DNA of 64,000 nt, taken from positions 24,764 to 88,763 of the forward strand of contig CACYHR010000025.1 of NCBI GenBank assembly GCA_902774265.1. The letters run 5' to 3'. The position numbers and the translations under genes are program-made. Positions 24,089 through 52,261 of the stretch are shown one piece after another. Below the pieces are notes generated by a model, which searched no databases, was not told the DNA's origin, and saw only the letters and a program-made list of their open reading frames with translations. This DNA comes from an uncultured Eubacteriales bacterium (GTDB lineage Bacteria > Bacillota > Clostridia > Peptostreptococcales > Anaerovoracaceae). Each line of letters starts with the position of its first letter. Position 1 is the stretch's first letter.

Positions 24089-25003
24089 ATGGAAGGAAAA
24101 TGGTCGGTATATTTTCAGAATCCGGAGTTCATTGAGCAGACAAGAATGAGTATGGCTCTTCCGGAGTACAAGCCCCTTATACGGAAATGGTGCGGTATCA
24201 GGGATGGAGCCGAAGTGCTTGATGTCGGCTGCGGTACAGGTTATTTCGCGCGTCTGCTCGCGGGCGGTGATGAGGATGTTACTGTTACCGGTATAGACCG
24301 TGATGACATATTTATCGATTATGCAAAGAGAAAGGCTTCGGAAGAAAGTCTGGATATAGATTTTGTCCTGGGAGATGCCCTGCATCTGCCTTTTGAGGAT
24401 AATAGCTTTGATGTGGTCGGAAGCCATACGTTTCTTACTAGCATGCCCGACCCGAAAGGAGCTTTTGACGAGATGAAGAGGGTAGTCAGGCCGGGCGGAA
24501 TCATAGCATCAGTAACGTCTATGAGTTTCTACCCTCCCGGGATCTCGCTTGGAATATATCCTGAGGAATGCGATGTATGGAAAAAGGAAATGGATACCCT
24601 TCTGATCAGGCTCACAAGGGCATACATGAAGATCGATCCGATCTCCGAGCGCGCTTCAGGCGTGGCTCCTGCGGCTGTACCGCACTTCTTTGCCGAACAG
24701 GGCATGGAACGTGTTTCTGCATATCCTGTAGGTCACATGGTTTCTGTTTCGAATGCTGCGATGCCGGTCGAAGACAAGGTCCGCTGGATAGAGCTGTACA
24801 GAGAATCAGAGATCAAAAAGCTGGACGCGTTTATGGAGCTCCCTGAGATGTCTGAGATGTTCAGCCCTGAAGAAGCGGTCAGATACAGGGAACTGCTGGA
24901 TCGGAAGTGCGACTTCCTTCTCTCAGACCTGACGGAAAACCGCATATGGGACTGGAGAGGCAATGCGAATCTGCTGGTTACGGGAATAAAACCCGTAGAA
25001 TAA
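24089..25003 (+). CDS. Class I SAM-dependent methyltransferase
   Basis: A 304-residue enzyme with the SAM-binding motif VLDVGCGTGYFARLL (about residues 45-59), the acidic loop GIDRDD, motif IV-like DNSFDVVGSHTFLTSMPD and RVVRPGGIIA. The C-terminal 130 residues are not typical of a named subfamily, so the substrate is unknown. The upstream leader with a terminator hairpin resembles the arrangement of inducible resistance genes, but that is only a position argument. The start has a weak site. Confidence 0.85.
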   Translation: MEGKWSVYFQNPEFIEQTRMSMALPEYKPLIRKWCGIRDGAEVLDVGCGTGYFARLLAGGDEDVTVTGIDRDDIFIDYAKRKASEESLDIDFVLGDALHLPFEDNSFDVVGSHTFLTSMPDPKGAFDEMKRVVRPGGIIASVTSMSFYPPGISLGIYPEECDVWKKEMDTLLIRLTRAYMKIDPISERASGVAPAAVPHFFAEQGMERVSAYPVGHMVSVSNAAMPVEDKVRWIELYRESEIKKLDAFMELPEMSEMFSPEEAVRYRELLDRKCDFLLSDLTENRIWDWRGNANLLVTGIKPVE

Positions 25004-25181: not shown

Positions 25182-27959
25182 ATGAAGAGTAATAGGATAT
25201 TTAGCATGATGCTCAGCCTTATGCTGTTACTGGGGATGATGCCGGGACTGAGTCCGGCAGCATATGCCGATGACGGCACAACATGGAGCGAGAACCGGAT
25301 CTTTAATGACGATGTAAGTTTTAATAATGGTGTCAGGATCAGTAACGATATCACAGTGACGATTGCTGCAGGCAGGAAGGTGTCTGTTAATGGCGGAATC
25401 GATGCGGAAAACAAGACTCTTACTGTCAATGGCCACGGTATGTTGATTGTCAACGGCAGTAACGCCTACGACAGCAGCGGTGACGCCGACGATGGCAGTA
25501 CCGGCTTTGCAGGAAACATCGTTGTTGAGGGTGCTTCAATCATTGTGACGGGCGGCCGCGGTGGCGATGGCGGCGACAACAATTATGGCGGCCACGGTGG
25601 TGACGGCGGCCGTGGCGTGAGCGGCGATGTTACAGTCAACAGCGGTTCTGTAAATGTGACCGGCGGCAACGGCGGCAACGGCGGTAATGGAAAAAGCTGG
25701 AGCAACGGCGGCAACGGCGGCGAAGGAGGCATGGGAGTAAGCGGAGAAGTTACAGTAAACGGCGGCTCTTTAAGTGTTACAGGCGGCAATGGCGGCAATG
25801 GCGGTAATGCAGAGAGCGGCGGCTACGGCGGCCAGGGTGGTGACGGCATGTTTGACACTGTTACAGTTAATGGCGGTTCAATCATTGTGTCAGGCGGTGA
25901 TGGCGGCAGCGCCGGCAGCGGCAAGGATAGCACCGAGGATGGCGTTGATGGCATCGGCGGCTTCGGCATATACGATGACATTATCCTCAACGGAGGAATT
26001 GCAGCTGTGACCGGCGGCAATGACAGACAGGCGATCACAGGTAAAATCGGCGGACCATACACTGAGATCAGGGAAAGCGATGATGGTGAAAACTGGTCTC
26101 TCGTTTCCGGCACATCTTCAGAAAAGAAGTATGTTAAGGCGGAAGCTAAATATCCTCTGTGGATCGGCGGCACTCAGGTGACGATAGCGAACAGGAATAA
26201 CGTGCTGGGTGACGGCAAAGTGAGCTTCACCCCGGCATCAGGCAGTGTTCCTGCCACCCTGACGCTGAAAGGTGTTGATCTCAACGGAGATTCTGACGGA
26301 TGGACAGACGACGGTGGTTCCGGATACAGTACGATAAGAACTGAACTGAAAGACCTGACTATCATGGTGGAGACTGACAGTACGGTTACCGGTCCGAGCA
26401 GCGGGGAAAAAACTTACAGCTATGGCATATTATCAAACGATAATCTGACTATCAGAGGCAGGGGTACGCTGAATGTCAGTGGAGGAAACCATGGATATAA
26501 CTTTGGAATCAGCGCTGATAATATCATTATCGATGGTAAATTATCCGCCAATGGAGTCATGCCGACAGTGCATACTGATGCAGACAACAGCGGCGTTTAT
26601 GTCCATACCGGAATTACCATCAACGAGGGAGCGGAATTGACGGCTACAGGCGTCGGCAGCAACGGAATGGCAATCGTCGATGCTGATGATGCAAAACTGG
26701 TAAATGCTGTCGACGGCACGGGGTGGACAGACACAGCAGGTACAAAAGAAAAGACGGAAATTGTCAAAGGCAATCATAAGCTTGAAGAACTGCAGAATTA
26801 TAAGAAGGTGCAGTTCCCCGGAGTGCCTGAGCCGGCAAAAAAATATACTGTTACATTCACAGACGGACAGGGGAATACTCTGGATGTCCAGTCTGTTGAG
26901 GAAGGAAAAGCAGCGACAGCTCCTGCAGACCCTGCAAGAGAAGGATATAGCTTCAACGGATGGGATACTGATTTCAGCAAAGTCAGATCGGATCTGACCG
27001 TAACAGCTAAGTGGAAGCAGATCATCGTGACCCACAAGGTGACTTTTGAAGACGGAATGGGGAAGGTGCTGGATACACAGGATGTTGTCGATGGAAGACC
27101 TGCGACAGCTCCGGCAGCTCCGACAAGAGCCGGATATATTTTCGCGGGCTGGGATACAGACTTCAGCAGTGTCACGACAGACCTGACAGTTAAGGCACGC
27201 TGGGAGAAAGAGTCTGCGAAAACCGACTCATATAAAGTCGTATTTGTGCTCGGGTTCGGATACGATCCGGTCTCTGTGGAGGTCGGCAAAGGAGGATCGG
27301 CAGCAGCTCCTGCGGTTCCGAAGGTAGACGGATTCACATTTATCGGATGGGATAAAGAATTCAGCAACGTCACAGAGAATATGACGGTAACGGCTAAATG
27401 GGAGAAGGATACACTTGGAAAAGTGCATACAGTTGTATTCGTGGATGGTTACAATGTAGTGCCTATACGTATACAGCGCGTAAAAGACGGCACAGCCGCC
27501 GTTCCGCCGGCAGATCCTGTAAGAGAAGGCTATACTTTTGACGGATGGGACACGGATTTCAGCTATGTCACATCAGATCTGACTGTCATTGCACAGTGGA
27601 CACAGAACGCAGCGACGGTAAAAACCATCACGGTCAATTCCAAAACGGTAAGCGCAAGTGTCCTGGATGCAGCAGTTAAAAAAGCCGGATGCAGGAGAAA
27701 TACAATTACAACGATCACTCTCGGCAAAAAGGTAAAGAAGATCAGCAAGGGAGCGTTCAAAAATTACAGAAATGCAAAGACCTTGATCGTAAAGACAAAG
27801 AAGCTGACGAAGAAATCCGTAAAGGGTTCTCTCAAAGGCTCTAAGGTCAGGACGGTAAAGATCAAAGTCGGAAAGAAGAAGACCAATAAAAAGTATGTTA
27901 AGAAGTATAAGAAGATCTTTACAAAGAAGAATGCCGGCAGGAAAGTCCGCGTAAGATGA
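25182..27959 (+). CDS. Secreted Gly/Asn-rich repeat surface protein with Listeria-Bacteroides repeats
   Basis: A 925-residue protein with signal peptide (SMMLSLMLLLGMMPGLSPAAYA). Residues about 110-290 hold five units of a beta strand plus glycine-rich run (VTVNGGSLSVTGGNGGNGGN type), encoded by GGC-rich repeats that could slip. A central beta region follows. Four InlB-type (Flg_new) repeats then occur, each ending GYxFxGWDxxFSxVxxxxTVxAxW (bases about 26840-27600). The C-terminus is a BspA-like leucine-rich segment (TLGKKVKKISKGAFKN) and a very basic tail likely to bind wall polymers. A 7-bp inverted repeat (TTGCTGT/ACAGCAA, 25090-25122) and AAGGAG lie upstream. Probable adhesin. Confidence 0.8.
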   Translation: MKSNRIFSMMLSLMLLLGMMPGLSPAAYADDGTTWSENRIFNDDVSFNNGVRISNDITVTIAAGRKVSVNGGIDAENKTLTVNGHGMLIVNGSNAYDSSGDADDGSTGFAGNIVVEGASIIVTGGRGGDGGDNNYGGHGGDGGRGVSGDVTVNSGSVNVTGGNGGNGGNGKSWSNGGNGGEGGMGVSGEVTVNGGSLSVTGGNGGNGGNAESGGYGGQGGDGMFDTVTVNGGSIIVSGGDGGSAGSGKDSTEDGVDGIGGFGIYDDIILNGGIAAVTGGNDRQAITGKIGGPYTEIRESDDGENWSLVSGTSSEKKYVKAEAKYPLWIGGTQVTIANRNNVLGDGKVSFTPASGSVPATLTLKGVDLNGDSDGWTDDGGSGYSTIRTELKDLTIMVETDSTVTGPSSGEKTYSYGILSNDNLTIRGRGTLNVSGGNHGYNFGISADNIIIDGKLSANGVMPTVHTDADNSGVYVHTGITINEGAELTATGVGSNGMAIVDADDAKLVNAVDGTGWTDTAGTKEKTEIVKGNHKLEELQNYKKVQFPGVPEPAKKYTVTFTDGQGNTLDVQSVEEGKAATAPADPAREGYSFNGWDTDFSKVRSDLTVTAKWKQIIVTHKVTFEDGMGKVLDTQDVVDGRPATAPAAPTRAGYIFAGWDTDFSSVTTDLTVKARWEKESAKTDSYKVVFVLGFGYDPVSVEVGKGGSAAAPAVPKVDGFTFIGWDKEFSNVTENMTVTAKWEKDTLGKVHTVVFVDGYNVVPIRIQRVKDGTAAVPPADPVREGYTFDGWDTDFSYVTSDLTVIAQWTQNAATVKTITVNSKTVSASVLDAAVKKAGCRRNTITTITLGKKVKKISKGAFKNYRNAKTLIVKTKKLTKKSVKGSLKGSKVRTVKIKVGKKKTNKKYVKKYKKIFTKKNAGRKVRVR

Positions 27960-28772: not shown

Positions 28773-29483
28773 ATGAGAAGCAAAAATGCATGCCTTGTGT
28801 GCGGCAGACCGCTGAAATACTTTACAAGTCCAAAACAGATGGAGTGCTGTTTTTGTCATAAGAAATTTCTGAGTTATGCATGCTGTGAAGAAGGGCACTT
28901 CGTTTGCGATGAATGCCATTCTGAAAAAGGCATAGAAGCTATAATCAGCTTTTGTCAGAATACTGACTCATCAGATCCGATAAAAATCGTACAGACCATT
29001 ATGAAAGATCCGTACATATACATGCATGGTCCGGAGCATCACACGATGGTAGGAGCGGCACTTTTGACAGCATACAGGAATGCAGGCGGGGATATCGATC
29101 TGCCTTCAGCACTGGCTGAAATGCATGAGCGTGGCAGGCAGTATCCCGGTGGTTCCTGCGGATTCTGGGGTTGCTGCGGCGCTGCAGTAAGTACAGGAAT
29201 GTTTATGAGCATAATAACAGATACGACTCCTCTGTCGACCGGGACATGGGGTTATTCCAATGAGATAACTTCACGTGCTCTGGCTGAGATTGCTACATAT
29301 GGAGGACCGAGGTGCTGTAAGCGCAATTCCTTTACTGCGATCCTGGCTGCAGCGGAATATACAGCAGAGAAAACAGGCGTAGAGATGGAAATTCCGGACA
29401 ATGTTATTTGCACCTTTTCAAGCGAAAATCACGAATGCTTAGGAAAGAAATGTCCATATCATAAAAGCAGTAATATGATCTGA
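28773..29483 (+). CDS. DUF5714 domain protein, cysteine-rich
   Basis: A 236-residue protein of unknown function. The N-terminus has CLVCG and CCFCHKKF plus ACCEEGHFVCDECHSEKG, two to three zinc-ribbon-like CxxC pairs, then a helical DUF5714 region with MHGPEHHTMVGAALL, CGFWGCCGAAVSTG and RCCKRNSF. The C-terminus ends in CLGKKCPYHKS. The abundance of conserved Cys and His suggests metal or cluster binding. It is directly upstream of the YcaO gene and could be its partner, which is inference. The ATG is preceded by AAGGGGG. Confidence 0.7.
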   Translation: MRSKNACLVCGRPLKYFTSPKQMECCFCHKKFLSYACCEEGHFVCDECHSEKGIEAIISFCQNTDSSDPIKIVQTIMKDPYIYMHGPEHHTMVGAALLTAYRNAGGDIDLPSALAEMHERGRQYPGGSCGFWGCCGAAVSTGMFMSIITDTTPLSTGTWGYSNEITSRALAEIATYGGPRCCKRNSFTAILAAAEYTAEKTGVEMEIPDNVICTFSSENHECLGKKCPYHKSSNMI

Positions 29484-29523
29484 ATAGAGCGCGGAGCAGC
29501 GGACTGCAGCTCTGTGGAGGAAT

Positions 29524-31350
29524 ATGTTGATAAATAGAAAGGCAAAAACAATGGGATGTAAATATAACAAGTATAAGGACAAAGAACCTGAGGATACCAT
29601 ATTCAGGATACAGGAGATACTCAACAGGGCGGGCCTGTTCACCGTTATGGATTGGATGGAAACCGGAAGTGACGGTGCTTTCTGCAATCGCGTTACTTTG
29701 TATCCATCGGCACTCGGAACTAACGGTAAGGGCACGGACAGGCTCTATGCGAGCGCCAGCGGATATGCGGAACTGATGGAGAGGATACAGAATGTCATGC
29801 TCAGTATATCAGCAGTACGCCCGAGAGTGAAGGGACACGGAGACTTTGCCGTATTTCCTGACGAAAAGGATGTCCCGGTTAAGGAACTCGCGGAACAGGG
29901 CGACGCGTTTCTTGAGTATATGTTTGAAAAGCTCGGATGCAGTGATCCTTTCTCGAAACAGGTGACCCTTAAGAGTTACGCGGGCATTCTCGAGAAGAGA
30001 AATGACGGAAAAATAAGAGTCGTGCCGTATGCTGACATAAGCGAGGGCAAAGTCGTATATCTTCCGGATACTGTAGTGACCTCTGTGTGCGGATCAAACG
30101 GAATGGCAGCGGGCAATACCATAGAAGAAGCGATAGTGCAGGGTATGTGCGAGGTGTATGAGCGTTATGTCAACAAAATGCTCCTTACCGGAAAAGCCGT
30201 GCCGCCTGAGATACCCGAAGGCGAACTGAAGAAGTACAGCATATGGGATCTTATAAAAGAGATCGAAGGCGACGGAAGGTATCATGTATCCGTGAGGGAC
30301 TGCTCTCTGGGAAAAGGCTATCCTGTCGTAGCTTCGATAATAACAGACCGTCATAACGGCAGCTTCGGAGTCAAGCTTGGCTCCCATCCGTCGATGGCGG
30401 TGGCTGTTGAGAGGACTCTGACAGAAGCCCTCCAGGGCAGGAGCGTAGAGAGGATAAGCTCTGTCAATTCTTACGGAAGCAAAGAGCAGGCCGAATCCTA
30501 TCACAATATCCCTAATATCATGAAGGTAAATGTCGGAGTCTACCCGGCAGCGCTTCTGAGCAGCAAAGCTGATTGGGAATACAGACCTTGGACTGAGTGG
30601 GAAGGCGGGAGCAACCGGGGGTTTGTTGCCCGTATGATCAGCATGGCTGAACGTGACGGCTGGCATATGTATATCAGGGACAACTCGCACATGGGCTTTC
30701 CGGCAGTCCAGATAGTGGTGCCGGGGTATACCGATATGTACACGATCGACCGCACATATTTCAGATCACTCAGGACCACCTGCAGTGCGTATGATGCCTT
30801 CTCGCACTTCCCGGATATTACATTATCTGAAGAGAAGAGCATACTCAGTATAATACGCTTCAAGGAAAACTCGTTCATCGAGAACACGCCTGCTCTCATT
30901 ATCGGACGGCCTGTCACCGACATCAGAATGCGTACCGACAGGATTGGTGCATTTATCGCATTCAGGCAGGGGAACTATGCGGTCGCAGAGCATTTATTTG
31001 CCAGACTTGTGTCCTATTATCCGGAGGATGATTGTATATATTACAAGGCTCTGATAAACTGGTGCAGGGCATTCGGTCTCGGACTGGATAAAGAAGGAGC
31101 CTTCGGGCTTGTTTATTCACTGTTTGGAGAAGAGATCGCTTCGCGCGTCAGAGCTGAGGCGGAGGATCCGGACGGAATACTGAAACGCAATTTCCCGAAG
31201 ATGAACTGTTTCGACTGTGAAAATTGTGAACTGAACGGAAAAGGTTGTAATAATATGATCGAGGAAGAGATTTATATCCGGATCAAGGATGCTATGAAGG
31301 GAAGCGGAGTTTCGCAGCAGGAGCTGCTTGACAGACTGAGTTCATTGTAA
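29524..31350 (+). CDS. YcaO-domain protein of the Escherichia coli YcaO type
   Basis: ATP-dependent enzyme family that activates peptide amide bonds. Motifs are SNGMAAGNTIEEAIVQGM then CEVYERYV (about residues 189-215), and GSHPSMAVAVERTLTEALQG (about 285-304), the ATP-binding glutamates and arginines. The wording is close to E. coli YcaO (SNGMSAGNT.., FERYV, YPV) and the C-terminus has a TPR-like helical part plus a four-Cys motif (CFDCENC..GKGC), not the proline tail of azoline-forming YcaO. No E1-like or TfuA partner is nearby. The setting before a Nif11-leader peptide suggests peptide modification; an S12-modification-type role is the alternative. Confidence 0.82.
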   Translation: MLINRKAKTMGCKYNKYKDKEPEDTIFRIQEILNRAGLFTVMDWMETGSDGAFCNRVTLYPSALGTNGKGTDRLYASASGYAELMERIQNVMLSISAVRPRVKGHGDFAVFPDEKDVPVKELAEQGDAFLEYMFEKLGCSDPFSKQVTLKSYAGILEKRNDGKIRVVPYADISEGKVVYLPDTVVTSVCGSNGMAAGNTIEEAIVQGMCEVYERYVNKMLLTGKAVPPEIPEGELKKYSIWDLIKEIEGDGRYHVSVRDCSLGKGYPVVASIITDRHNGSFGVKLGSHPSMAVAVERTLTEALQGRSVERISSVNSYGSKEQAESYHNIPNIMKVNVGVYPAALLSSKADWEYRPWTEWEGGSNRGFVARMISMAERDGWHMYIRDNSHMGFPAVQIVVPGYTDMYTIDRTYFRSLRTTCSAYDAFSHFPDITLSEEKSILSIIRFKENSFIENTPALIIGRPVTDIRMRTDRIGAFIAFRQGNYAVAEHLFARLVSYYPEDDCIYYKALINWCRAFGLGLDKEGAFGLVYSLFGEEIASRVRAEAEDPDGILKRNFPKMNCFDCENCELNGKGCNNMIEEEIYIRIKDAMKGSGVSQQELLDRLSSL

Positions 31351-31424
31351 ACAATGCAGCGATTAAAGAATAAGAATCGGATTTTTTCAGAAGCAAGGCA
31401 ATATAGTTTTTGGCCTCAAAAGTA

Positions 31425-31433
31425 TGTTATAAT
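31425..31433 (+). promoter_or_regulatory. Extended -10 promoter of the precursor peptide genes
   Basis: TGTTATAAT is an extended -10 (TGn plus TATAAT) with only a T-rich -35 region. It overlaps a small inverted repeat (GTTAT/ATAAC). It lies 42 bases before the precursor ATG, and a weak five-pair hairpin with T6 (31359-31386) precedes it, so the peptides likely have their own transcript. Confidence 0.5.
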
Positions 31434-31474
31434 TACATAACAATCGGTGATTGAATACGGAAGGAGACCCAAAG

Positions 31475-31813
31475 ATGAACGAGAATATAAAAAAATTTGT
31501 TGAAAAAGCTATCAATGACAAGGCGCTGCAGGATAAGATGGCAGCATGCAAAACTCCTGAGGAGGCTTATGCAATCGCAAGTTCCGTACAGGATGGATTT
31601 ACCATGGAGGAATTCACAGAGGCCATGCAGCAGTTGTTTGATCTGACACATGAGAACGAGCTTACTGATGAGGATCTTGCAAAAGCTGCGGGAGGCACAT
31701 CTGAAGAGGATGACTTTACTATCTTTCTCACCATGAGCGGGATCGCCGTATCAGCGTCGGCTGCCTTGTCTGTTGTGGAAGCGGCATCTGCAGCAGCAGG
31801 ATGCGCTGTATGA
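31475..31813 (+). CDS. Nif11-type leader natural-product precursor peptide
   Basis: A 112-residue peptide. The leader starts MNENIKKFVEKAINDKALQD, with KTPEEAYAIASS, a Nif11-like helical domain, and ends ELTDEDLAKAAGG, the double-glycine cleavage site recognised by C39 peptidases. The core would be the last 38 residues (beginning TSEEDDFTIF, ending AASAAAGCAV): acidic then Ala/Ser/Val-rich, with a single Cys four residues from the end counting from the Val. GGAAGGAG supports the ATG at 31475. YcaO lies upstream, and a C39 exporter lies downstream. The mature structure is unknown. Confidence 0.88.
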   Translation: MNENIKKFVEKAINDKALQDKMAACKTPEEAYAIASSVQDGFTMEEFTEAMQQLFDLTHENELTDEDLAKAAGGTSEEDDFTIFLTMSGIAVSASAALSVVEAASAAAGCAV

Positions 31814-31834
31814 CAGAAAATAAGAGGTGAGGGT

Positions 31835-32077
31835 ATGAAAGAAGGCTTGATTATGGATAAGATAGGAATAGACGAGCTTAATAACGTGACAGGCGGATGT
31901 TATGGCGGAGATCTTGATTTCGGGGATGATAATGATAATAATAATCCTCCGGAAAACTTCGGTAATGAGGGCCTGGATTTCTGGAAGACTGAGACACAGC
32001 AGAAGATCGAAGATGCGACAACTAATCCGCATTCAAAGAAATACAAAAACAAGGCGAAAAATACTCTGAAATACTAA
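31835..32077 (+). CDS. Second double-glycine leader peptide, putative precursor
   Basis: An 80-residue peptide with a short bacteriocin-type leader: MDKIGIDELNNVTGG, fitting the ELxxVxGG rule. The remainder is polar, with a Gly/Asp/Asn-rich section (CYGGDLDFGDD, one Cys) and a lysine-rich end. A GAGGTGAGGG site favours the ATG at 31835; an inner ATG at 31853 has GAAGG before it. It lies 22 bases behind the Nif11 precursor and before a strong terminator, so the pair forms one unit. It has no family match that I recognise beyond the leader. Confidence 0.7.
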   Translation: MKEGLIMDKIGIDELNNVTGGCYGGDLDFGDDNDNNNPPENFGNEGLDFWKTETQQKIEDATTNPHSKKYKNKAKNTLKY

Positions 32078-32117
32078 GAGGGCTTACGATGCTCCGCATG
32101 AGGAACACATTGCAGGA

Positions 32118-32149
32118 AACAGTTTGTCTAAGAGATGGACTGTTTTTTT
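32118..32149 (+). terminator. Intrinsic terminator between precursor peptides and exporter operon
   Basis: AACAGTTTGTCT folds onto AGATGGACTGTT (twelve pairs, three wobble; three-base loop), followed by T7. Confidence 0.8.
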
Positions 32150-32155
32150 GTTCTT

Positions 32156-32204
32156 GCAGATGTATTTCGCTTTACATGGTTACGGATGTTCGTTGAATTG
32201 CAGC
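32156..32204 (+). repeat. Intergenic conserved element, copy B
   Basis: Matches copy A (23850-23905): the first 15 bases and TGAATTGCA near the end are identical. A possible extended -10 (TAGAAT at 32267-32272, preceded by ATGTGA) follows at the same distance as in copy A, upstream of the HlyD-type gene. Confidence 0.5.
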
Positions 32205-32316
32205 CATCCCGCTGCAATAAATACCGACTGTAGGCAAATAGGCAACATAAACCGGCTGAAATGTGATAGAATCAGTCTGGTTATTTATATTCGTTACAAC
32301 ACAAGGGAATCAGTAT

Positions 32317-33882
32317 ATGTCAAATCCATTCAGAAAATCAGTAATAGACAAGCTGTCATCTCCGGAGAAGCTTGACCAGTCAATCATAATAATAGCTCCG
32401 TCATTCTGGGTCGCCGCTTTGGGCGGGCTGCTTGTTATAGCAGTCGCTCTTGTATGGTCGATAATCGGAAGGCTTCCTGTCAATGTCAGCGCCGGCGGCA
32501 TGTACATGGGCGCAGGAGGTCTGCAGTCTGTTGTGGCGGAAGCCGATGGAGTGGTAGATACCGTGTATGTGAACGAAGGAGATGAAGTTAATAAAGGCCA
32601 GAAGATAGCTCAGCTCGACTCAGCTGTTTTTGATGAGCAGATATCTGCTCTGCAGACACGGAAGACAGATGTGGAGAGCGTCACATTCTGGTCATCAGAC
32701 GATCCCGAAACTGCGGATACCAAGCCTCTTTTAGAAATAAAGGCACAGGCCGGTCTGGCCGATACAAACCTTACCGCAGATCAGATAGCACTCAGAGAAA
32801 GATCGAAGGCCCTTTCAAAGCAGAGAAAAACAACTTCGGAAGCCAAAGCAAAGAAAAATTCAGCTAAAAATACTTATCGTAAAAAGCAGGCCGCTTATGC
32901 CAAAGCACAGAATGCATACGAGAAAGCAAGTGAGGCATACAAAACTGCAGCAGCTGAATTGCAGGAAGCAATCAACGAAGGCAAAACCGGAGATGAACTG
33001 ATTCCGTATCAGACAGCTGTCGAAGAGACGGAAAAGGCTCTCAAATCTGCTGAAGGCAGAGTGAAATCTCGTGAACTGGCATTGAAAAATGCTGAATCGG
33101 CATACAGCATGGCAGTACAGACATATAACACTGAGAAAGCGACTAAGAAGCAGCTTGCGGATACTGTATCCCAGATGGAGGCGAAAGTAAAAGCCGATAA
33201 ATCCGGAACGGGCAAGCAGGTAACGGCGCTCGAGAAGCAGTTCAACGCGGCAAAGGGCGGATTGCTTGACCAGATAAATCAGGAACTCAAAAAGCAGCAG
33301 AGTGCAGCAGACAAGCTGACGCTCAGATCGAGATTCGACGGCAGGGTCACCGGCGTCAGTATAGCTGAGGGTAATGCAGTGCAGGCCGGAATGTCGATAT
33401 GTACGATCAACTATGACGCCGAGGGAGAAGAGACAGTCCTTTTTTTACCTGTATCCGAAGGAAAGAAGATAAAAAAGGACATGCCCGTTATAGTTTATCC
33501 ATCAACAGTGAACCGCCAGGAGGCCGGTCACATGGAGGGAAAGGTTACAGGAGTCTCAGATACAGTCGTATCTGCTCAGGAGATGATCAATCAGCTTGGC
33601 GATCAGTCACTGGCACAGGCATTCCAGCAGAGCGGACCTGTGATCAGAGTCAGCTGCAGTCTTGAAAAAGACGAAAACACAGCAAGCGGCTATAAATGGT
33701 CGAGCAAAAAGGGGTCTGAGATCGAGCTTGATGAAGGCACTATAGTACAGGCGGATATCGTGATCGAAGAAAAGGCTCCTATAACGATGCTTATTCCTCT
33801 TCTCAAGGAGAAACTCTCAGTAAACAGAGAGCAGAACGGGCAGAATAACGGACAGGCATCGCAGTCAGCTGAAGGAAATTAG
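32317..33882 (+). CDS. NHLM-type bacteriocin secretion protein, HlyD family (long form)
   Basis: Membrane-fusion/adaptor component of the NHLM peptide exporter. A single N-terminal helix (SFWVAALGGLLVIAVALVWS) follows the family motif KLSSPEKLDQ. Next comes a biotinyl-like half (SVVAEADGVVDTVYVNEGDE), a long Lys/Ala/Glu coiled coil (about residues 160-310), then the second half (RSRFDGRVTGVSIAEGNAV) and a beta barrel. AAGGGA precedes the ATG at 32317. It leads the operon with two ABC transporter genes. Confidence 0.9.
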   Translation: MSNPFRKSVIDKLSSPEKLDQSIIIIAPSFWVAALGGLLVIAVALVWSIIGRLPVNVSAGGMYMGAGGLQSVVAEADGVVDTVYVNEGDEVNKGQKIAQLDSAVFDEQISALQTRKTDVESVTFWSSDDPETADTKPLLEIKAQAGLADTNLTADQIALRERSKALSKQRKTTSEAKAKKNSAKNTYRKKQAAYAKAQNAYEKASEAYKTAAAELQEAINEGKTGDELIPYQTAVEETEKALKSAEGRVKSRELALKNAESAYSMAVQTYNTEKATKKQLADTVSQMEAKVKADKSGTGKQVTALEKQFNAAKGGLLDQINQELKKQQSAADKLTLRSRFDGRVTGVSIAEGNAVQAGMSICTINYDAEGEETVLFLPVSEGKKIKKDMPVIVYPSTVNRQEAGHMEGKVTGVSDTVVSAQEMINQLGDQSLAQAFQQSGPVIRVSCSLEKDENTASGYKWSSKKGSEIELDEGTIVQADIVIEEKAPITMLIPLLKEKLSVNREQNGQNNGQASQSAEGN

Positions 33883-33893
33883 GAGGCAGGCAT

Positions 33894-35990
33894 ATGAAAA
33901 AAAATTACGCCAAAACGCCTACTGTCTATCAGATGGAATCGACTGAATGCGGAGCCGCTTCTCTTGCTATGGTGCTGGGGTATTACGGCAAATTCGTTCC
34001 TCTCGAAAAGCTGCGTATAGAAACGGGCGTCTCGAGGGACGGATGCAATATGGTGAATATAAAGATAGCTGCGCAGAAGTTCGGCCTTGAGGTGCGTGGT
34101 TACCGCAAATCACCCCAAACCCTGCTCGATCTTCCTGTGCCCTGCATCATACACTGGAATTTCAATCACTTTGTTGTCTGGGAGGGTCACAAGGGCGACG
34201 CCTGCTATATAAACGATCCGGCAATGGGCCGGCGCAAACTGACAATTCAGGATATAGACGACTGTTTCACAGGCCTGGTGCTCACCTTTAAGCCGACAGA
34301 AAAATTCGAGAAATCGAATGAAAAAGAGAGTCTGTTAACATTTGTAAGGGAAAGGCTCAGAGGCCAGAAGGGCGCGATCGCAGGGCTTATACTGCTTGGC
34401 TTTTTCCTCCTTATACCGGGTATAGTAGTGCCGATATTCTCGAGAGTGTTCATAGACGATATACTGCTTGGAGGTAACGACGACTGGGTCACTGCGCTTC
34501 TTGTGATCATGCTCTTCACCGCATTATTTCAGTCGTTACTCACATATTACAGAGCGCAGACCCTGCAAAAGCTGCAGGACAAAATGATAATGATCAGTGC
34601 CTATAATTTCCAGTCTCATATGCTGAGACTGCCTATAGGATTCTTCACACAGAGATATGCGGGTGATCTCTCAAACCGTATAGAGAATAACAATAATATC
34701 AGTGTGTTTCTGACAAGCCAGCTGGCCGAAGCAGTACTCAACTGCATAATGGCTCCGCTTTATCTGATTCTGCTGCTGTTTTACAGCCCTCTTCTGACGC
34801 TTATCGGAGTCGTAATTACTGCTGTCAATCTGATAGTGATGCAGCGCAGTTCAAAAGTGCTGGGAGATATGTCTATGAAAGCCCAGCAGGATCAGAGCAG
34901 GATGATAGGGTCGCTCTTCTCAGGCATAAAAATGAGCAGTACTCTGAAGTCATCGGGTACAGAAAGTGAATATGCCGGCCGTATACAGGGCAATTACGCA
35001 AAAAGCATACGTATGGAGCAATCAATGGGTCTGACACAGGAAGCTCTGAATGCGATACCTGAAGTATCGCAGAACATACTGACGGTTCTCACTCTGGTGA
35101 TAGGCGGGGTGCAGGTTATACACGGAGATATGACCGCAGGCATGCTTGTAGCATATACCGCTCTGCTGAACTCTTTCACGGCGCCGGTCAATTCGCTTGC
35201 AGGCTTTATTATGAATATACAGACCACCAGAGCCGATATGGCCAGAGTCAACGACATAATGAAATACGAACTCGACGACAAATATGCCGAGGAAGAATAT
35301 GCAAAATTGAGTGATAAACTGCTCGGAAAGGTCGAACTCGACAATGTATCGTTCGGCTACAACGTACTGGATCCGCCGCTTGTGGGAGCATCCGGCAGCG
35401 GCAAATCTACTGTCGCAAAGCTCTGCTCCGGTCTGTACAGACCGTGGGGCGGTGAGATCAGGTTCGACGGATGCCCCGCAGTGAAGGTGCCGCCTGAGGT
35501 GATGTCGGCAAGTCTGTCGACAGTGAGTCAGAACATCTCGCTTTTCTCCGGCACCATAAGGGATAATCTCACCATGTGGGACAGGTTTGTCACCGATGAA
35601 GATATAATCCGGGCAGCAAAGGATGCATGCATCCACGACTTTATCACCACCAAGCCGGGTGCATACGAATATGAGCTGACAGAAGGCGGAGGAAACCTCT
35701 CCGGCGGACAGAGGCAGAGAATGGAAATAGCAAGAGCTCTTGTGAGCGGCCCGAGCGTGCTGCTCATGGATGAAGCCACCAGCGCGCTTGATCCTATAGT
35801 TGAAAAAGAGATAATCGACAATATCAAGATGCGCGGATGCAGCTGTATCATAGTAGCTCACAGACTGTCGGCCATAAGAGACTGTGACGAGATAATCGTT
35901 CTCGATCACGGCAAGATAGTACAGAGAGGCACACACGAAGAACTGTCGAAAGTGCCGGGCCATTACCAGAGACTTACGGAAACGATGTAA
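33894..35990 (+). CDS. NHLM bacteriocin-system ABC transporter, C39 peptidase/permease/ATPase (with internal 16-residue deletion)
   Basis: It should cleave leaders after Gly-Gly and export the peptide. The C39 peptidase triad is Cys19 (STECGAAS), His92 (NFNHFVVW) and Asp108 (INDPAMG). Six helices and an ATPase follow, with Walker A GASGSGKST, signature LSGGQRQRM and Walker B VLLMDEATSALD. Compared with its paralogue at 50073, 16 residues are missing in frame between DPPL and VGASGSG (junction near 35381): the strand-turn-strand before Walker A that normally contacts the nucleotide. This may impair ATP hydrolysis while the peptidase stays intact. It starts 11 bases after the HlyD gene. Confidence 0.9.
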   Translation: MKKNYAKTPTVYQMESTECGAASLAMVLGYYGKFVPLEKLRIETGVSRDGCNMVNIKIAAQKFGLEVRGYRKSPQTLLDLPVPCIIHWNFNHFVVWEGHKGDACYINDPAMGRRKLTIQDIDDCFTGLVLTFKPTEKFEKSNEKESLLTFVRERLRGQKGAIAGLILLGFFLLIPGIVVPIFSRVFIDDILLGGNDDWVTALLVIMLFTALFQSLLTYYRAQTLQKLQDKMIMISAYNFQSHMLRLPIGFFTQRYAGDLSNRIENNNNISVFLTSQLAEAVLNCIMAPLYLILLLFYSPLLTLIGVVITAVNLIVMQRSSKVLGDMSMKAQQDQSRMIGSLFSGIKMSSTLKSSGTESEYAGRIQGNYAKSIRMEQSMGLTQEALNAIPEVSQNILTVLTLVIGGVQVIHGDMTAGMLVAYTALLNSFTAPVNSLAGFIMNIQTTRADMARVNDIMKYELDDKYAEEEYAKLSDKLLGKVELDNVSFGYNVLDPPLVGASGSGKSTVAKLCSGLYRPWGGEIRFDGCPAVKVPPEVMSASLSTVSQNISLFSGTIRDNLTMWDRFVTDEDIIRAAKDACIHDFITTKPGAYEYELTEGGGNLSGGQRQRMEIARALVSGPSVLLMDEATSALDPIVEKEIIDNIKMRGCSCIIVAHRLSAIRDCDEIIVLDHGKIVQRGTHEELSKVPGHYQRLTETM

Positions 35991-38549
35991 ATGAAGCAGA
36001 TTGTTCTCAAGGGTGGGGATATCCACTACACAAATAAAGACCGCGCCGTATACAGTATTGTTAAGGGACCTGTCCTTGTTTATCTTATACCGTTCAGAGA
36101 CGGAGTCGAGGGCAGGAGGTTTTTGCTAGGCAGATTTGAAGATAACGAGTCGATACCGGGCTTCCACCATAAGTCCGATCTTTTCGGTGAATGGAAATTC
36201 GGATTTGTTGCGATGGATCTCGCGGGGCTGATTCTGGAAGACAGTGAGGCTGATGATGGGCTTCTCATGGACTTTTCTGAAAGCATCGGCATGAAACTGC
36301 CGAGGGCAGGGGCTTTTGATGAGCAGATCATAGAACGATATGAACGCATAGCGGTAAAGGAAAAGGGATATATATACGCCGCAAAGAGGGAGCGTGCCCG
36401 CACAAAGCGCAAGACGCTCGGGATGATATCCGACTACTTTGACAAGCAGCGGTCTAAAGAAAAGGCAGCAGGCTTTACGGAGACCGGTAAACCGCTCTAC
36501 GATGCAGCTGCATATATCTGTGCTCGTGAGAAGATAAGCATCGCGCCGATTGAGCGCATCAATGAAGCATGCGGCCGCAGATATGATATAAACGATATCG
36601 CCAGAGTCTCGCATTTCGTTATCAGAGAGGTAGTGCTCGAAGAGGAATGGCAGCGAAAGGACTCAGGATCGGTGCTGGCTTTCCGCAAAGAAGACAACAG
36701 CCCTGTCGCCTGTGTGCCGAAGGGACCGAAAAAACACAGAATGTACGATCCCGGGGCAGGAATAACAAAGCTGATGAACAGCGATGACGTATCAGAGCTT
36801 GAGGGAAAGGCGTACATGTTTTACAGGCCTTTTCCTGAGAAAGCCATTACAAAGATGGATCTGTTCCGATTCGGCATGCAAAAAGTATATCCGGGCGATC
36901 TGGTGAGACTCTTCGGTCTGGCGCTGCTCGGCACACTGGTCGGGCTTCTGATCCCTTACATGAATGAACAGGCATATGACAAATTCATACCTATGGGCAA
37001 TTCCTCCGGTCTGATGCAGATCGGTGCAGTTCTGCTTGCGTGCTCACTCGGTAATATATCGTTCACGGTCGTAAAAAATCTGGCATCATTCCGGTCGATG
37101 AATACGATGGAATATGCGGTGCAGTCAGCGGTGATAGACAGACTGTTCAATCTGCCTGAGAGCTTTTTCAGAAAATATGACGCCGCGAATCTCGGACAGC
37201 GGGTTATGGGCATAGCGCAGATATACAATGTGCTGGCGCAGAGCCTCGTCACGACACTTTTATCCGCAGTATTCTCGCTGCTGTATCTCTGGCGGATGTT
37301 CAAATATTCCCGTGCGATGTCTGTCTGGGCAATAGTAATGCTGGCTGTAGTGATGGCATTTGTCCTTTATATGGGCTTCAATCAAATTAAATATGAAAAG
37401 CTGAAGCGTGATGCGGATGTGAAGATACAGTCGATCTCATTCCAGAACATCCTCGGTATCAATAAGATAAGAGATGCCTGGGCGGAAGACCGTGCTATAA
37501 TGCGTTATTTTGAGCCTTTCATAGAATCACGCCGAATCAACAGAACCAAAGAAAATTATACAAGAGTAGTAAATGCAGTAACATCGTCAGCATCGATCAT
37601 ATTCTCGATAGTCTTTTTCTATCTGATGATCCGTAAAAGCATAGGTCTTACTATCGGTGAGTTCACTGCATTCACGTCGGCTTTCGGTTCTTTCTCGGCA
37701 TCCATGCTCACGATAGTGCAGAACTTCCTTGTGGTGAATCAGGTAAAGCCTCTGTACGAATTCGCACAGCCTGTGCTGGAGAGTATTCCTGAACTGTCCG
37801 AAGAAACCAGACTGCCCGGCAGACTTGAAGGAGAAATAGAAATAAACAACGTCACATTCTCATACGATCCCGGTGAGCCGCCTGTGATCGACGGCCTCAG
37901 CCTGCATATCAAGCCGGGTGAATACATAGGAGTCGTGGGTTCTTCCGGCTGCGGCAAATCGACCTTGCTGAAGCTGCTGCTGGGATTTGAAACTCCTCAG
38001 CTGGGAAAGATATATTATGATCAGGCAGATATAGATGAGCTTGATAAAAGAGAGCTCAGAAAGAAATTCGGAGTAGTGCTGCAGGATGGCGGCCTTATAT
38101 CCGGAAGCATATCCGATAACATAACAATAACAGCGCCGAATACGGGCAAGGCCCGCGTAGAGGAGGTAATAAAAGAAGTCGGCCTCGAAGAAGATATAAA
38201 GAATATGCCTATGGGACTGCATACCATGGTAGCCGAAGGAGCCGCCACCATATCCGGCGGGCAGGCACAGCGCATACTAATAGCTCGTGCCATAGTTAAT
38301 AAACCAAAAATTATATTCCTCGATGAAGCAACAAGCGCACTCGACAATGTGACACAGAATCAGGTGGTGGAGACACTCGAGAGCATAAATGCCACAAAGC
38401 TTGTAATAGCCCACAGGCTGTCCACGGTGCGCAACTGCGATCGTATAATCGTGATGGATAAAGGGCAAATAGTCGAACAGGGCACATATGATGAACTTAT
38501 GGCAATGAAGGGACTCTTCCACAGCCTTGCGGTCAGGCAGATATCTTAA
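35991..38549 (+). CDS. NHLM bacteriocin-system ABC transporter, ATP-binding/permease
   Basis: The second ABC half of the NHLM system, 852 residues. The N-terminal 300 residues are a family-specific cytoplasmic region (cyclic-nucleotide-binding-like start, then VLAFRKEDNSPVACVPKGP), followed by six helices and a complete ATPase: Walker A GSSGCGKST (about residue 650), ISGGQAQRIL, and Walker B IIFLDEATSALDN. It has no C39 domain. It abuts the peptidase-transporter stop codon directly, so the two probably heterodimerise. Confidence 0.9.
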   Translation: MKQIVLKGGDIHYTNKDRAVYSIVKGPVLVYLIPFRDGVEGRRFLLGRFEDNESIPGFHHKSDLFGEWKFGFVAMDLAGLILEDSEADDGLLMDFSESIGMKLPRAGAFDEQIIERYERIAVKEKGYIYAAKRERARTKRKTLGMISDYFDKQRSKEKAAGFTETGKPLYDAAAYICAREKISIAPIERINEACGRRYDINDIARVSHFVIREVVLEEEWQRKDSGSVLAFRKEDNSPVACVPKGPKKHRMYDPGAGITKLMNSDDVSELEGKAYMFYRPFPEKAITKMDLFRFGMQKVYPGDLVRLFGLALLGTLVGLLIPYMNEQAYDKFIPMGNSSGLMQIGAVLLACSLGNISFTVVKNLASFRSMNTMEYAVQSAVIDRLFNLPESFFRKYDAANLGQRVMGIAQIYNVLAQSLVTTLLSAVFSLLYLWRMFKYSRAMSVWAIVMLAVVMAFVLYMGFNQIKYEKLKRDADVKIQSISFQNILGINKIRDAWAEDRAIMRYFEPFIESRRINRTKENYTRVVNAVTSSASIIFSIVFFYLMIRKSIGLTIGEFTAFTSAFGSFSASMLTIVQNFLVVNQVKPLYEFAQPVLESIPELSEETRLPGRLEGEIEINNVTFSYDPGEPPVIDGLSLHIKPGEYIGVVGSSGCGKSTLLKLLLGFETPQLGKIYYDQADIDELDKRELRKKFGVVLQDGGLISGSISDNITITAPNTGKARVEEVIKEVGLEEDIKNMPMGLHTMVAEGAATISGGQAQRILIARAIVNKPKIIFLDEATSALDNVTQNQVVETLESINATKLVIAHRLSTVRNCDRIIVMDKGQIVEQGTYDELMAMKGLFHSLAVRQIS

Positions 38550-38602
38550 AGGTTACAATAGCATTGTAGTTATGCCGGAAAAAGAGCAGATCGGGATAAG
38601 TA

Positions 38603-40291
38603 ATGGACAGGGCTTCAAAAAAACACAGATCGCTTAAAACCAAAACCATAATAGTTATTCTGCTGGTATCACTGCTGATGATTCTTGTCGGCAGTGCCGG
38701 CGGTCTTGTTCTGTACAGCTATTCCACTCTTAAAAGCTACAAAAATGAGGCCAGAGATCTTATCTCCTATACGATGTCGATGCAGGACGGCGAATATATC
38801 GAAAAAATATTCAGAGAGACCCACAGGGTATATGAGAGCATGCCCGAAGAAGTCCGCAGTGATCCGACTTCAGATGAGTTCATTGAAGCTGTCATACCGC
38901 TTATCGATGATGATTACTATGCGGCGCGGAATATCCTTGTAAAGTGCAGGGAGGAGACTGTGAACCGCAATATGGCTCTTGTGTTCACCGATCCTGAGTC
39001 TTCGGCCCTGGTATATGTTATAGACGGAGATGTCAGAGAATGGGCGTACCTGCCGTGTCAATGGCAGGTGGAAGACCTTGCGCAGCTTGAGTCTGAACAG
39101 AGATCCTCATGGAGACTTATTATGACCTATGAGAAGGAGTACGGCTGGATCGGAACCGACTGTGACAAGATATACGATACAAACGGAAATGTGATCGGAT
39201 ATGCTGTAATGGATCTGGACATCAATGATTTTCTGAACAGCGTATTCCGTTTCCTGATCGTGCTGCTGCCTGCATCTCTGCTGATAGTTGCAGCTCTGGC
39301 ATTTCTTTCGGAAAATCTGCTGAAAAAGCACATAATATCTCATCTGACATCCATGGCTGATGCTGCCAGGGAATATACAGCGATGGACAAGGTGGATCTG
39401 GATGAGCAGACTCGGTCGGTGTTCGAGCCGCTGGGAATCAATACCGCAGATGAGCTTGAGGATCTGTGGCGCAGCATGAGCGCGATGGAGAGCGATGTCA
39501 AAGACAGCATCATCAGACTGCGTAAGATAACTGCCGAGCAAGAGAGGACCGAAGCCGAGCTTGCCATAGCGACAAAGATACAGATGGGCGTGCTGCCTGA
39601 CAAATTCCCTGACAGAAGTGAGTTTGAACTGCATGCTTCCATGAACCCGGCAAAAGAAGTCGGAGGCGATTTTTACGATTTCTTTATGATCGATGACGAA
39701 CATCTCGCTATAGTCATTGCTGACGTATCTGATAAAGGGATATCGGCTGCGCTCTTTATGGTCATTGCCAAGACACTTATCAAGAATGAGACGGAGCACG
39801 GAAACGGAGATCCGGCCGAAATATTTTCGAATGTCAATGCCAGGCTTATGGAAGTCAACAAGGCGTACATGTTCGTTACTGCATGGCTGGGTATACTCGA
39901 TATATCCACCGGCGTTGTGAAATACGTGAATGCAGGTCACGAATGTCCGGCGATATGCAGAGCCGGAAGTAAGTTCGAAGTCATGAAGGATGCACACGAT
40001 GCTCCGCTTGCTGCGCGCAGAAAAACAAAATTCAAATCGAAGATATTTACACTTGATACGAATGATACATTATATGTGTATACTGATGGCGTGACAGATG
40101 CAAGAAGCCCGGAGAACGAAATGTTCGGGCGTGATCGTATGCTTCATGCGCTTAACAGAGAACATGATGCGCATCCTGAAACTATAGACAGGAATATACA
40201 GGAGAGCATATCGGATTTCGTTAACGGCGCTGATCAGTTCGACGATACTACAATGCTGTGTCTGAAGTATCTGGGAGCAGACAGGGATTAG
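38603..40291 (+). CDS. Membrane SpoIIE/RsbU-type PP2C serine phosphatase
   Basis: A 562-residue protein. It has two membrane helices (ILLVSLLMILVGSAGGLVLY; FLIVLLPASLLIVAALAFL) flanking an extracellular sensor, a HAMP-like linker, a coiled coil (AEQERTEAELAIATKIQMGVLP) and a PP2C_SIG catalytic domain with metal aspartates (EVGGDFYDFF, IADVSDKG, VYTDGVTDA, DDTTMLCL). Such enzymes dephosphorylate anti-anti-sigma factors; the STAS gene is 24 bases downstream. It follows the NHLM operon with a short gap, so export could be tied to an external signal. Confidence 0.9.
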   Translation: MDRASKKHRSLKTKTIIVILLVSLLMILVGSAGGLVLYSYSTLKSYKNEARDLISYTMSMQDGEYIEKIFRETHRVYESMPEEVRSDPTSDEFIEAVIPLIDDDYYAARNILVKCREETVNRNMALVFTDPESSALVYVIDGDVREWAYLPCQWQVEDLAQLESEQRSSWRLIMTYEKEYGWIGTDCDKIYDTNGNVIGYAVMDLDINDFLNSVFRFLIVLLPASLLIVAALAFLSENLLKKHIISHLTSMADAAREYTAMDKVDLDEQTRSVFEPLGINTADELEDLWRSMSAMESDVKDSIIRLRKITAEQERTEAELAIATKIQMGVLPDKFPDRSEFELHASMNPAKEVGGDFYDFFMIDDEHLAIVIADVSDKGISAALFMVIAKTLIKNETEHGNGDPAEIFSNVNARLMEVNKAYMFVTAWLGILDISTGVVKYVNAGHECPAICRAGSKFEVMKDAHDAPLAARRKTKFKSKIFTLDTNDTLYVYTDGVTDARSPENEMFGRDRMLHALNREHDAHPETIDRNIQESISDFVNGADQFDDTTMLCLKYLGADRD

Positions 40292-40315
40292 AAAAAAAAG
40301 AGGAGGTAATGATCG

Positions 40316-40624
40316 TTGAAATTAGAAAAGATAACAGACGGTAAAAAACTGGTCATAAAGATAGAAGGTGAGATAACTGCGGTCAATGCGCCTGAACTGA
40401 ACGAACTGGTCGACAGTGTGATCGACGATACAGATAATCTTATATTTGATGTCTCGGATATGGATTACACCTCTTCGGCCGGACTGCGGGTTTTTCTTAA
40501 AGCACTGCAGATTATGGACGAAAAAGACGGATATACGGAAGTCGTCGGGGCAAATGATGTAGTGATGGAGATATTCGAGGAAACAGGTTTTGTAAACTTC
40601 CTGAATATTGCGGTCGGTGATTGA
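40316..40624 (+). CDS. STAS-domain anti-sigma factor antagonist
   Basis: A 102-residue anti-anti-sigma protein (SpoIIAA/RsbV type). The phosphorylatable serine lies in DVSDMDYTSSAGLRVFLKA (about residues 43-61). AGGAGGT supports the TTG start; an ATG seven bases upstream is out of frame. It should be substrate of the phosphatase just upstream. The matching anti-sigma kinase and sigma factor are not adjacent; the only kinase-like domain in the window is fused to the MATE protein. Confidence 0.9.
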   Translation: MKLEKITDGKKLVIKIEGEITAVNAPELNELVDSVIDDTDNLIFDVSDMDYTSSAGLRVFLKALQIMDEKDGYTEVVGANDVVMEIFEETGFVNFLNIAVGD

Positions 40625-40815
40625 TGCTGCGGATAAAAATACCGGAAAGCAAACCTCCCGAAAAGGAGTTTTTTTTGCATGAAGAGATATTCAGTATCTT
40701 TGAAAACGAATATAAACCGCGTCGCGGAGTGTGCACCGGGTTTTTACCCGAGGAGAGTGAGTCTGTTTTGTGTCGGGACCGGTATCATCTGATTGCCATT
40801 AAATTTACGATTTAG
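40624..40815 (+). CDS. Hypothetical small protein overlapping the STAS stop codon
   Basis: 63 residues, MLRIKIPESKPPEKEFFLHE at the start. The ATG shares bases with the STAS TGA (TGATG), which would couple translation. I do not recognise it; it could be a truncated gene start. After it, 40816-40949 shows only a 24-codon stretch (from 40819) and no recognisable gene. Confidence 0.35.
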   Translation: MLRIKIPESKPPEKEFFLHEEIFSIFENEYKPRRGVCTGFLPEESESVLCRDRYHLIAIKFTI

Positions 40816-49648: not shown

Positions 49649-50068
49649 ATGGAAGAACAAAACTCAGTATTCAGAAAGAAAACGCTTGAGCGCATCTCAT
49701 CTCCGGAGCAGCTCACTGACTATCTGCATGTAACCGGACCGGGCATATGGATCATGCTGATAATAATAATGCTCCTGCTCGGAAGTCTTTTTACGTGGGC
49801 TGCGATCGGTACTCTTGAAACAAAGGCGGATGTCAGTGTGGATGTAAAGCAGCACAATGCGGTAGTCATCGCACCGGGCGGAGAAAAGCTCGCAGAGGGC
49901 ATGCCTCTTCGCGTATCCGGGCAGGATACAACGATCGCTTCTGCAACGGCAGATGAATATGGCAGAACGGTAGGAGTTGCAGAGGTCGCACTTCCGGACG
50001 GAAAATATGAAGGCGCGGTCGTAACAGAGACTGTGCATGCCATAGATTTTCTGATCGAAAGCAGGTGA
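49649..50068 (+). CDS. NHLM-type secretion protein, minimal HlyD-like form
   Basis: 139 residues: family motif RISSPEQLTDYLHVTGPGIW, one membrane helix (IMLIIIMLLLGSLFTWAAI) and a short extracellular part with IAPGGEKLAEGMPLRVSG. It lacks the coiled coil and second half of the long paralogue at 32317. It starts the second exporter operon, five bases before the peptidase-transporter gene. No complete ribosome site is obvious. Confidence 0.8.
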   Translation: MEEQNSVFRKKTLERISSPEQLTDYLHVTGPGIWIMLIIIMLLLGSLFTWAAIGTLETKADVSVDVKQHNAVVIAPGGEKLAEGMPLRVSGQDTTIASATADEYGRTVGVAEVALPDGKYEGAVVTETVHAIDFLIESR

Positions 50069-50072
50069 GATC

Positions 50073-52250: not shown

Positions 52251-52261
52251 GGAGCGAAGTA

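Follow-up and report, generated by a model that had tools for sequence, protein, structure and literature searches.

The window analyzed here is a 64,000-nucleotide stretch of contig CACYHR010000025.1 in the assembly GCA_902774265.1 of an uncultured Eubacteriales bacterium, and our subject is a set of genes in it, grouped around a YcaO protein, for a ribosomally synthesized and post-translationally modified peptide (RiPP). The set comprises genes for a DUF5714 protein (positions 28773 to 29483; PF18978, E value 4e-72), the YcaO protein (29524 to 31350; PF02624, 7e-46), a 112-residue Nif11-type precursor (31475 to 31813; PF07862, and TIGR03798 at 41.2 bits against a cutoff of 32.3), an NHLM HlyD-type adaptor (32317 to 33882; TIGR03794, 247 bits against a cutoff of 156, scored on a longer frame from 32263), the NHLM C39 peptidase/ABC exporter ABC1 (33894 to 35990; TIGR03796, 932 bits, above the cutoff), NHLM ABC2 (35991 to 38549; TIGR03797, 819 bits, above the cutoff), a SpoIIE-type PP2C phosphatase (38603 to 40291; PF07228), and a STAS anti-anti-sigma protein with a TTG start (40316 to 40624; PF01740, and TIGR00377 above the cutoff). 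An earlier note on this DNA had read these genes as a ribosomal-peptide locus whose precursor has a Gly-Gly leader and a 38-residue core. This was borne out, with the leader ending in AAGG and each gene lying at the place and in the order given, all on the plus strand. Three further plus-strand features had been passed over: a LahSB-type S-adenosylmethionine (SAM)-dependent methyltransferase of the C-terminal carboxylate O-methyltransferase family (24089 to 25003), a second small double-Gly peptide (31835 to 32077), and a second NHLM exporter (49649 to 54454).

The methyltransferase has a Pfam methyltransferase domain, and in a phmmer search it matched LahSB (PDB 6uak) with an E value of 3.7e-109 over residues 4 to 300, the next match being at 7.4e-16. 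Judged by this similarity, it is an ortholog of LahSB and a predicted C-terminal carboxylate O-methyltransferase. LahSB is encoded in the lah cluster of Lachnospiraceae bacterium C6A11. As described in excerpts of PMC11285071, four of the seven LahA peptides are O-methylated by it on their C-terminal carboxylate, the last residue being Met, Ile, or Val, and it does not need the leader. LahT150, a C39 domain from the same cluster, cleaves Nif11-leader LahA peptides at Gly-Gly (excerpts of PMC6363468). We read the window locus as part of a lah-type RiPP pathway whose genes are divided between two or more sites of the genome, and we put the probability of this reading at about 0.78. The LahSB ortholog, the Nif11 precursor, and the clade of the YcaO (below) make the locus a further example of a described kind of pathway rather than the new DUF5714/YcaO system that the earlier note had proposed. 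The C6A11 cluster (LahA, LahM1/M2, LahSB, and LahT), which our YcaO scan itself recovered as locus L064, is like the window in having Nif11 double-Gly precursors, LahSB, a YcaO of the same clade, a C39 exporter (excerpts of PMC6363468), and SpoIIE and STAS genes nearby. It differs from the window in that the source genome of the window has its LanM-like protein, its FMN reductase, and three of its four precursors on another contig; in that the window has one precursor and two NHLM exporters; and in that LahSB and YcaO are separated in the window by genes for a surface protein, an amidase, and DUF5714.

Four aligned YcaOs served as the query for a single scan of genome contigs, which yielded 561 pattern matches and 412 relatives; the best 80 of the 412 fell in 77 loci. 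We built a quick tree, without bootstrap, of 96 rows (94 of them different), made up of E. coli YcaO and 95 YcaOs from the 77 loci, the window, and loci L042, L043, L044, and L046. A clade of 36 rows (Shimodaira-Hasegawa-like approximate likelihood ratio test, 95) unites the window YcaO with its paralogs from the same genome and with the two C6A11 YcaOs; E. coli YcaO lies outside this clade, on a long branch whose placement is unsure. We then compared the neighborhoods, taken as 10 kb to either side of YcaO, of 34 clade loci (window included) and 47 other YcaO loci; many contigs end inside the 10 kb, and L046 and L078 represent a single contig. Nif11 genes were found at 22 clade loci versus 2 others, LahSB-like methyltransferases at 17 versus 0, LanM-like proteins at 17 versus 0, FMN reductase at 13 versus 0, and SpoIIE and STAS each at 4 versus 0. 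The view of the earlier note that YcaOs of the E. coli type are unusual in peptide clusters was not supported: here a whole clade of them occurs largely with Nif11, LanM, and LahSB genes. Moreover, a cluster with YcaO and LanM from the Lachnospiraceae LahM/LahSB paper, which is reference 24 of PMC10676384, is placed in network 36 in excerpts of that work, so a YcaO within the lah cluster is already in print.

The link between YcaO and the methyltransferase is also seen in gene order. A LahSB-like gene directly precedes a YcaO gene in L062, L064, L065, L066, L068, and L107, and the two domains are fused in one protein in L046 (7838 to 10627; the same as in L078), L081 (7251 to 9962), and L101 (11078 to 13324). 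The Robinsoniella peoriensis locus (L068) shares with the window Nif11 precursors, a LahSB-like methyltransferase, YcaO, NHLM ABC1 and ABC2, SpoIIE, and STAS; it has in addition two YcaOs, a radical SAM protein, and genes for a HATPase anti-sigma protein and a sigma-70 factor, and no LanM was found within the stretch examined. When we surveyed 391 genomes of the class, a LahSB homolog at an E value of ≤1e-30 was present in one, the source genome itself, and YcaO at ≤1e-50 was present in five, the source genome included. The lah-type system is rare and scattered, so the neighborhood statistics rest on a single contig scan.

The core of the window precursor has 38 residues, TSEEDDFTIFLTMSGIAVSASAALSVVEAASAAAGCAV, ends in AAAGCAV, and contains one Cys. 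From 61 candidate precursors at 26 loci (L046 omitted as a duplicate and L107 added), 54 cores were defined by rule and 7 were dropped. The C-terminal residue was Ile, Val, Leu, or Met in 45 of the 54 cores, Ala accounted for 33% of the 12 C-terminal residues, and any Cys at all was present in only 7, the window core among them, which makes the single Cys, the target named in the earlier note, unlikely to be one as a rule. The C termini and the scarcity of Cys fit the known substrates of LahSB and argue against ring-forming lanthipeptides. Of 18 distinct LanM-like rows, 15, including both C6A11 LanMs and the one from the source genome described below, had no match to a crude regular expression for the zinc cyclase motif, and the rows from L076, L079, and L080 did match. 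A canonical (class II) lanthipeptide is probably not the product, as Cys is scarce and, by this crude pattern and with those three matches, the zinc motif is mostly absent. The mostly missing motif agrees with the zinc-less LanMs described in excerpts of PMC10676384.

The second genomic site is contig C53 of the same genome. The assembly is 90.8% complete, and in it we found four Nif11 genes (the one in the window and three on C53), one LanM-like protein (on C53), three YcaOs, and RimO. Contig C53 also carries FMN reductase, a YcaO 78% identical to that of the window, a SpoIIE 51% identical to that of the window, and IS110 and IS200-like transposases; neither LahSB nor an NHLM exporter was found within the 19 kb of it that was covered. 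The three C53 precursors are homologous to the window precursor, with 53 to 58% identity over 89 to 103 residues. Since the leaders at the two sites are alike, we infer that the C53 LanM acts in trans on the window precursor. A lah pathway may then be split across a genome, in which case cluster-by-cluster mining would misread both halves. Small double-Gly peptides lie near each of the three YcaO paralogs. At the third paralog (L042, 9633 to 11928), they are two tandem short peptides with the leaders SERLDGVSGG and SEKLDGVSGG, and a very similar set is found at L067 (527 to 2869), on a contig of a Methanosphaera metagenome-assembled genome that is probably misbinned and bacterial.

Several observations weigh against a lah-type reading of the window. 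The NHLM exporter genes are not clearly linked to the clade: among the 34 clade and 47 other loci, ABC1 was found at 8 versus 4 (Fisher P = 0.11) and HlyD at 3 versus 0 (P = 0.07), neither of them significant, with ABC2 at 7 versus 2 (P = 0.03). In these searches, 11 of the 34 clade loci had none of Nif11, LahSB, LanM, and FMN reductase; these are L042, L067, L094, and eight ruminant-gut loci of Actinomycetota. L042 and L067 have their two short double-Gly peptides each, and on inspection L073 and L112, among the eight, have short Nif11-like peptides, which Pfam confirms for L073 only. In the window itself, LanM was not recognized, LahSB and YcaO are 4.5 kb apart with the surface protein, amidase, and DUF5714 genes between them, and only 40 bp separate DUF5714 from YcaO, which lies downstream of it on the same strand; this spacing makes co-transcription of the two genes plausible. 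Finally, about 16 residues immediately ahead of Walker A are missing from ABC1 when it is compared with 11 relatives that cover this region and with the second NHLM ABC1 of the window; the local ABC1 may be damaged, or the assembly may be wrong there.

The gap in ABC1, taken with the lack of a LanM in the window and the presence of LanM, FMN reductase, and three precursors on C53, could also mean that the window holds a decayed lah remnant, with a broken exporter and a lost LanM, and that the active copy is on C53. We consider this unlikely. The frames of YcaO, LahSB, the precursor, HlyD, ABC2, SpoIIE, and STAS are all open and uninterrupted, C53 has neither LahSB nor an NHLM exporter in the part covered, the gap may be an assembly error, and the window has another NHLM ABC pair farther downstream. 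The second exporter consists of ABC1 (50073 to 52250), with a complete Walker A region, ABC2 (52262 to 54454), and a short HlyD-like stub (49649 to 50068), for which Pfam gave no match and which was called by eye because it resembles the beginning of the first HlyD. It could serve in place of the local ABC1. No precursor was recognized beside it.

The short distance between DUF5714 and YcaO also bears on the model of the earlier note, in which the two form a dedicated modifying pair and DUF5714 gives metal or sulfur. DUF5714 is Cys rich, and its sole NCBIfam match at an E value of ≤0.001, which stays below the cutoff (148 versus 600 bits), covers the first half of MbdU, a "metal-binding double selenoprotein." However, co-occurrence speaks against the pair. 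A profile of family sequences matched in the window only and, within the DNA covered, found DUF5714 at 0 of 81 other YcaO loci, apart from a stray E value of 0.03 in L097. The genome has one DUF5714 and three YcaOs, and the 78%-identical sister YcaO has no DUF5714 in the 19 kb covered. The six relatives with a LahSB-like gene directly before YcaO leave no room for one. Conversely, eight DUF5714 loci from the same genus, some on short contigs, had no homolog of the 11 other window reference proteins searched. In a sample of its family, 84 of 296 genomes had DUF5714 and 8 of 292 had YcaO, the source genome included. Four genomes of the sample (G090, G165, G239, and G274) contain both, always on different contigs, the YcaO of G274 being below the cutoff. 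We therefore rejected DUF5714 as the partner, on the grounds that it is missing from the other YcaO loci and common in the family without YcaO; a dedicated pair is very unlikely, and DUF5714 is probably not part of the lah-type pathway but a resident gene next to the lah genes.

The main interest of the locus is an E. coli-like YcaO, here with a likely peptide substrate. The AlphaFold2 model of the window YcaO has a mean predicted local distance difference test (pLDDT) score of 92, and in Foldseek it aligned over its whole length with E. coli YcaO (4q84, 4q85, and 4q86; 577 to 603 columns) at template modeling scores of 0.68 to 0.74 (query), compared with 0.35 to 0.44 for other YcaO proteins. 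The earlier note had thus been right to call it E. coli type as far as architecture is concerned. E. coli YcaO is the namesake of the superfamily, and its own chemistry is unsettled in excerpts of a 2011 review (PMC3347575), which call its function unknown and mention a suggested chaperone role for RimO. The full-length fold, a best NCBIfam match to YcaO_for_S12 (NF040716), and a RimO in the genome would fit a housekeeping role as a helper of RimO in S12 methylthiolation, the alternative that the earlier note had kept in reserve. That match scores 207 bits against an equivalog cutoff of 700, YcaO is found in 0 of the 18 same-genus genomes listed, small double-Gly peptides lie near each of the three paralogs, and the clade is tied to RiPP genes. 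On its score and distribution, we rejected the housekeeping role, which we judge to be very unlikely. The window YcaO thus shares the family and full-length fold of the E. coli S12 accessory factor and differs from it in its score, its precursor-peptide neighbors, and its C-terminal tail.

The tail contains a four-Cys motif, CFDCENCELNGKGC, at residues 562 to 575 (Cys 562, 565, 568, and 575), modeled at a pLDDT of 89 to 91 and absent from E. coli YcaO. With a pattern fixed after the tails had been viewed (C-x2-4-C-x2-3-C-x3-8-C; four short rows dropped), matches numbered 29 among the 36 clade rows and 35 among the 55 others, where shuffled tails gave expectations of 0.49 and 0.28; seven clade rows (six distinct) lack the motif. 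The stricter pattern tried first matched 23 of the 42 rows that come from clade loci and 18 of the other 53. The motif thus marks a wider YcaO group and not only the lah clade, and it is widespread in YcaO C-terminal tails across L062 to L138. We found no match to PF07812 (TfuA) in the 90.8%-complete genome and, on that basis, rejected TfuA-dependent thioamidation. It is conceivable, if rather unlikely, that lah-clade YcaOs need no TfuA or E1-like partner and that the four-Cys motif, as a site for a metal, an iron-sulfur cluster, or a persulfide, supplies the sulfur with which the Ala-rich C-terminal backbone is thioamidated. If this is true, lah-clade YcaOs would reveal chemistry that is open to the E. 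coli-type fold. Enzymes of this fold from gut, rumen, and other bacteria are tied to short leader-bearing peptides, so that YcaO action on the peptide bond can be tested directly. We found no paper testing the action of the lah YcaO in the literature searched, in which subscription papers were mostly beyond reach.

Two known RiPP families invite comparison. Thioamitides undergo dehydration and methylation, as we propose for the window peptide. They combine a YcaO (with TfuA) with an Ala-rich hydrophobic core, as in thioviridamide (excerpts of PMC10676384), and the window differs from them in its leader, in a YcaO of E. coli architecture, and in a source genome in which TfuA was not found. Dehydrazoles (carnazolamide, cca cluster) resemble the lah type in that a single pathway combines YcaO with a LanM lacking zinc ligands. 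Their leaders are nitrile-hydratase-like, their cores are Ser/Thr/Cys rich, and their azoles are made with a dehydrogenase, whereas lah-type cores are Cys poor and Ala rich with Nif11 leaders; the nitrile-hydratase-like leader family is not among the family matches of the window proteins, and the precursor leader matches Nif11.

In the pathway that we propose, the Nif11 leader would recruit the tailoring enzymes, and the LanM-like protein of C53 would dehydrate Ser and Thr in the core, mostly without lanthionine formation. With the use of ATP, the YcaO would activate a backbone amide in the core and modify it, the C-terminal carboxylate would be methylated by the LahSB ortholog, and the C39 domain of an NHLM exporter would cut after Gly-Gly, with export of the peptide following. 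The likely product is a peptide rich in Ala, Val, Ser, and Thr that is dehydrated in trans, YcaO modified, methyl esterified at its C terminus, cut, and exported. A radical SAM/SPASM protein, seen in some lah-type loci (L062, 9603 to 10625, by Pfam, and also L063 and L068), is a further possible tailoring enzyme.

SpoIIE and STAS may form part of a partner switch that controls transcription. The earlier note had this phosphatase/anti-anti-sigma switch gating export; SpoIIE recurs at 4 of the 34 clade loci, and in L068 the next genes after it encode a HATPase anti-sigma protein and a sigma-70 factor, and STAS follows the exporter. By analogy, this layout speaks for a switch that acts on transcription and not on export. 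The only parts of such a switch recognized in the window are SpoIIE and STAS; no HATPase anti-sigma kinase or sigma factor was recognized by eye in the frames after STAS, and the rest of the genome was not searched for them. An open frame at 40621 to 40815 had no domain recognizable by eye, no family search having been made for it.

The second small peptide, with the leader ELNNVTGG, had no family match in Pfam and NCBIfam searches and is possibly, from its sequence, another substrate of the C39 domain. Its gene begins 21 bp after the Nif11 gene and ends 239 bp before HlyD, which is followed by ABC1, ABC2, SpoIIE, and STAS; upstream, the gaps are 41 bp from the amidase gene to DUF5714 and 124 bp from YcaO to the Nif11 gene. 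For the precursor we prefer the ATG at 31475, which is preceded by GGAGA, and for HlyD, whose open reading frame opens with a GTG at 32263, we prefer the ATG at 32317. A scan for terminators found 8 against 2.7 expected, one of them a terminator-like hairpin at 32114 to 32148, between the small peptides and HlyD; a promoter scan (9 sites against 8.4 expected) was uninformative.

A plasmid origin of the window YcaO was rejected, since all 30 records from a tblastn search against plasmids were below 60% identity; in the 10 rows shown, 4 were annotated as ycaO and 6 had no listed feature. For the borders of a possible island, the radical SAM gene of the right flank gave matches of 34 to 35% in 4 of 24 other same-genus genomes, and no empty site was recoverable. 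One locus of the scan, from a Candidatus Gastranaerophilales genome (L127), has four neighboring YcaO genes. Large presumed surface proteins adjoin all three YcaO loci of the source genome, at 25182 to 27959 in the window, 12052 to 13530 in L042, and 186 to 3701 in L043. Those of L042 and L043 have an N-terminal part in common, and that of the window shares a C-terminal stretch with that of L042 (39% identity over 85 residues).

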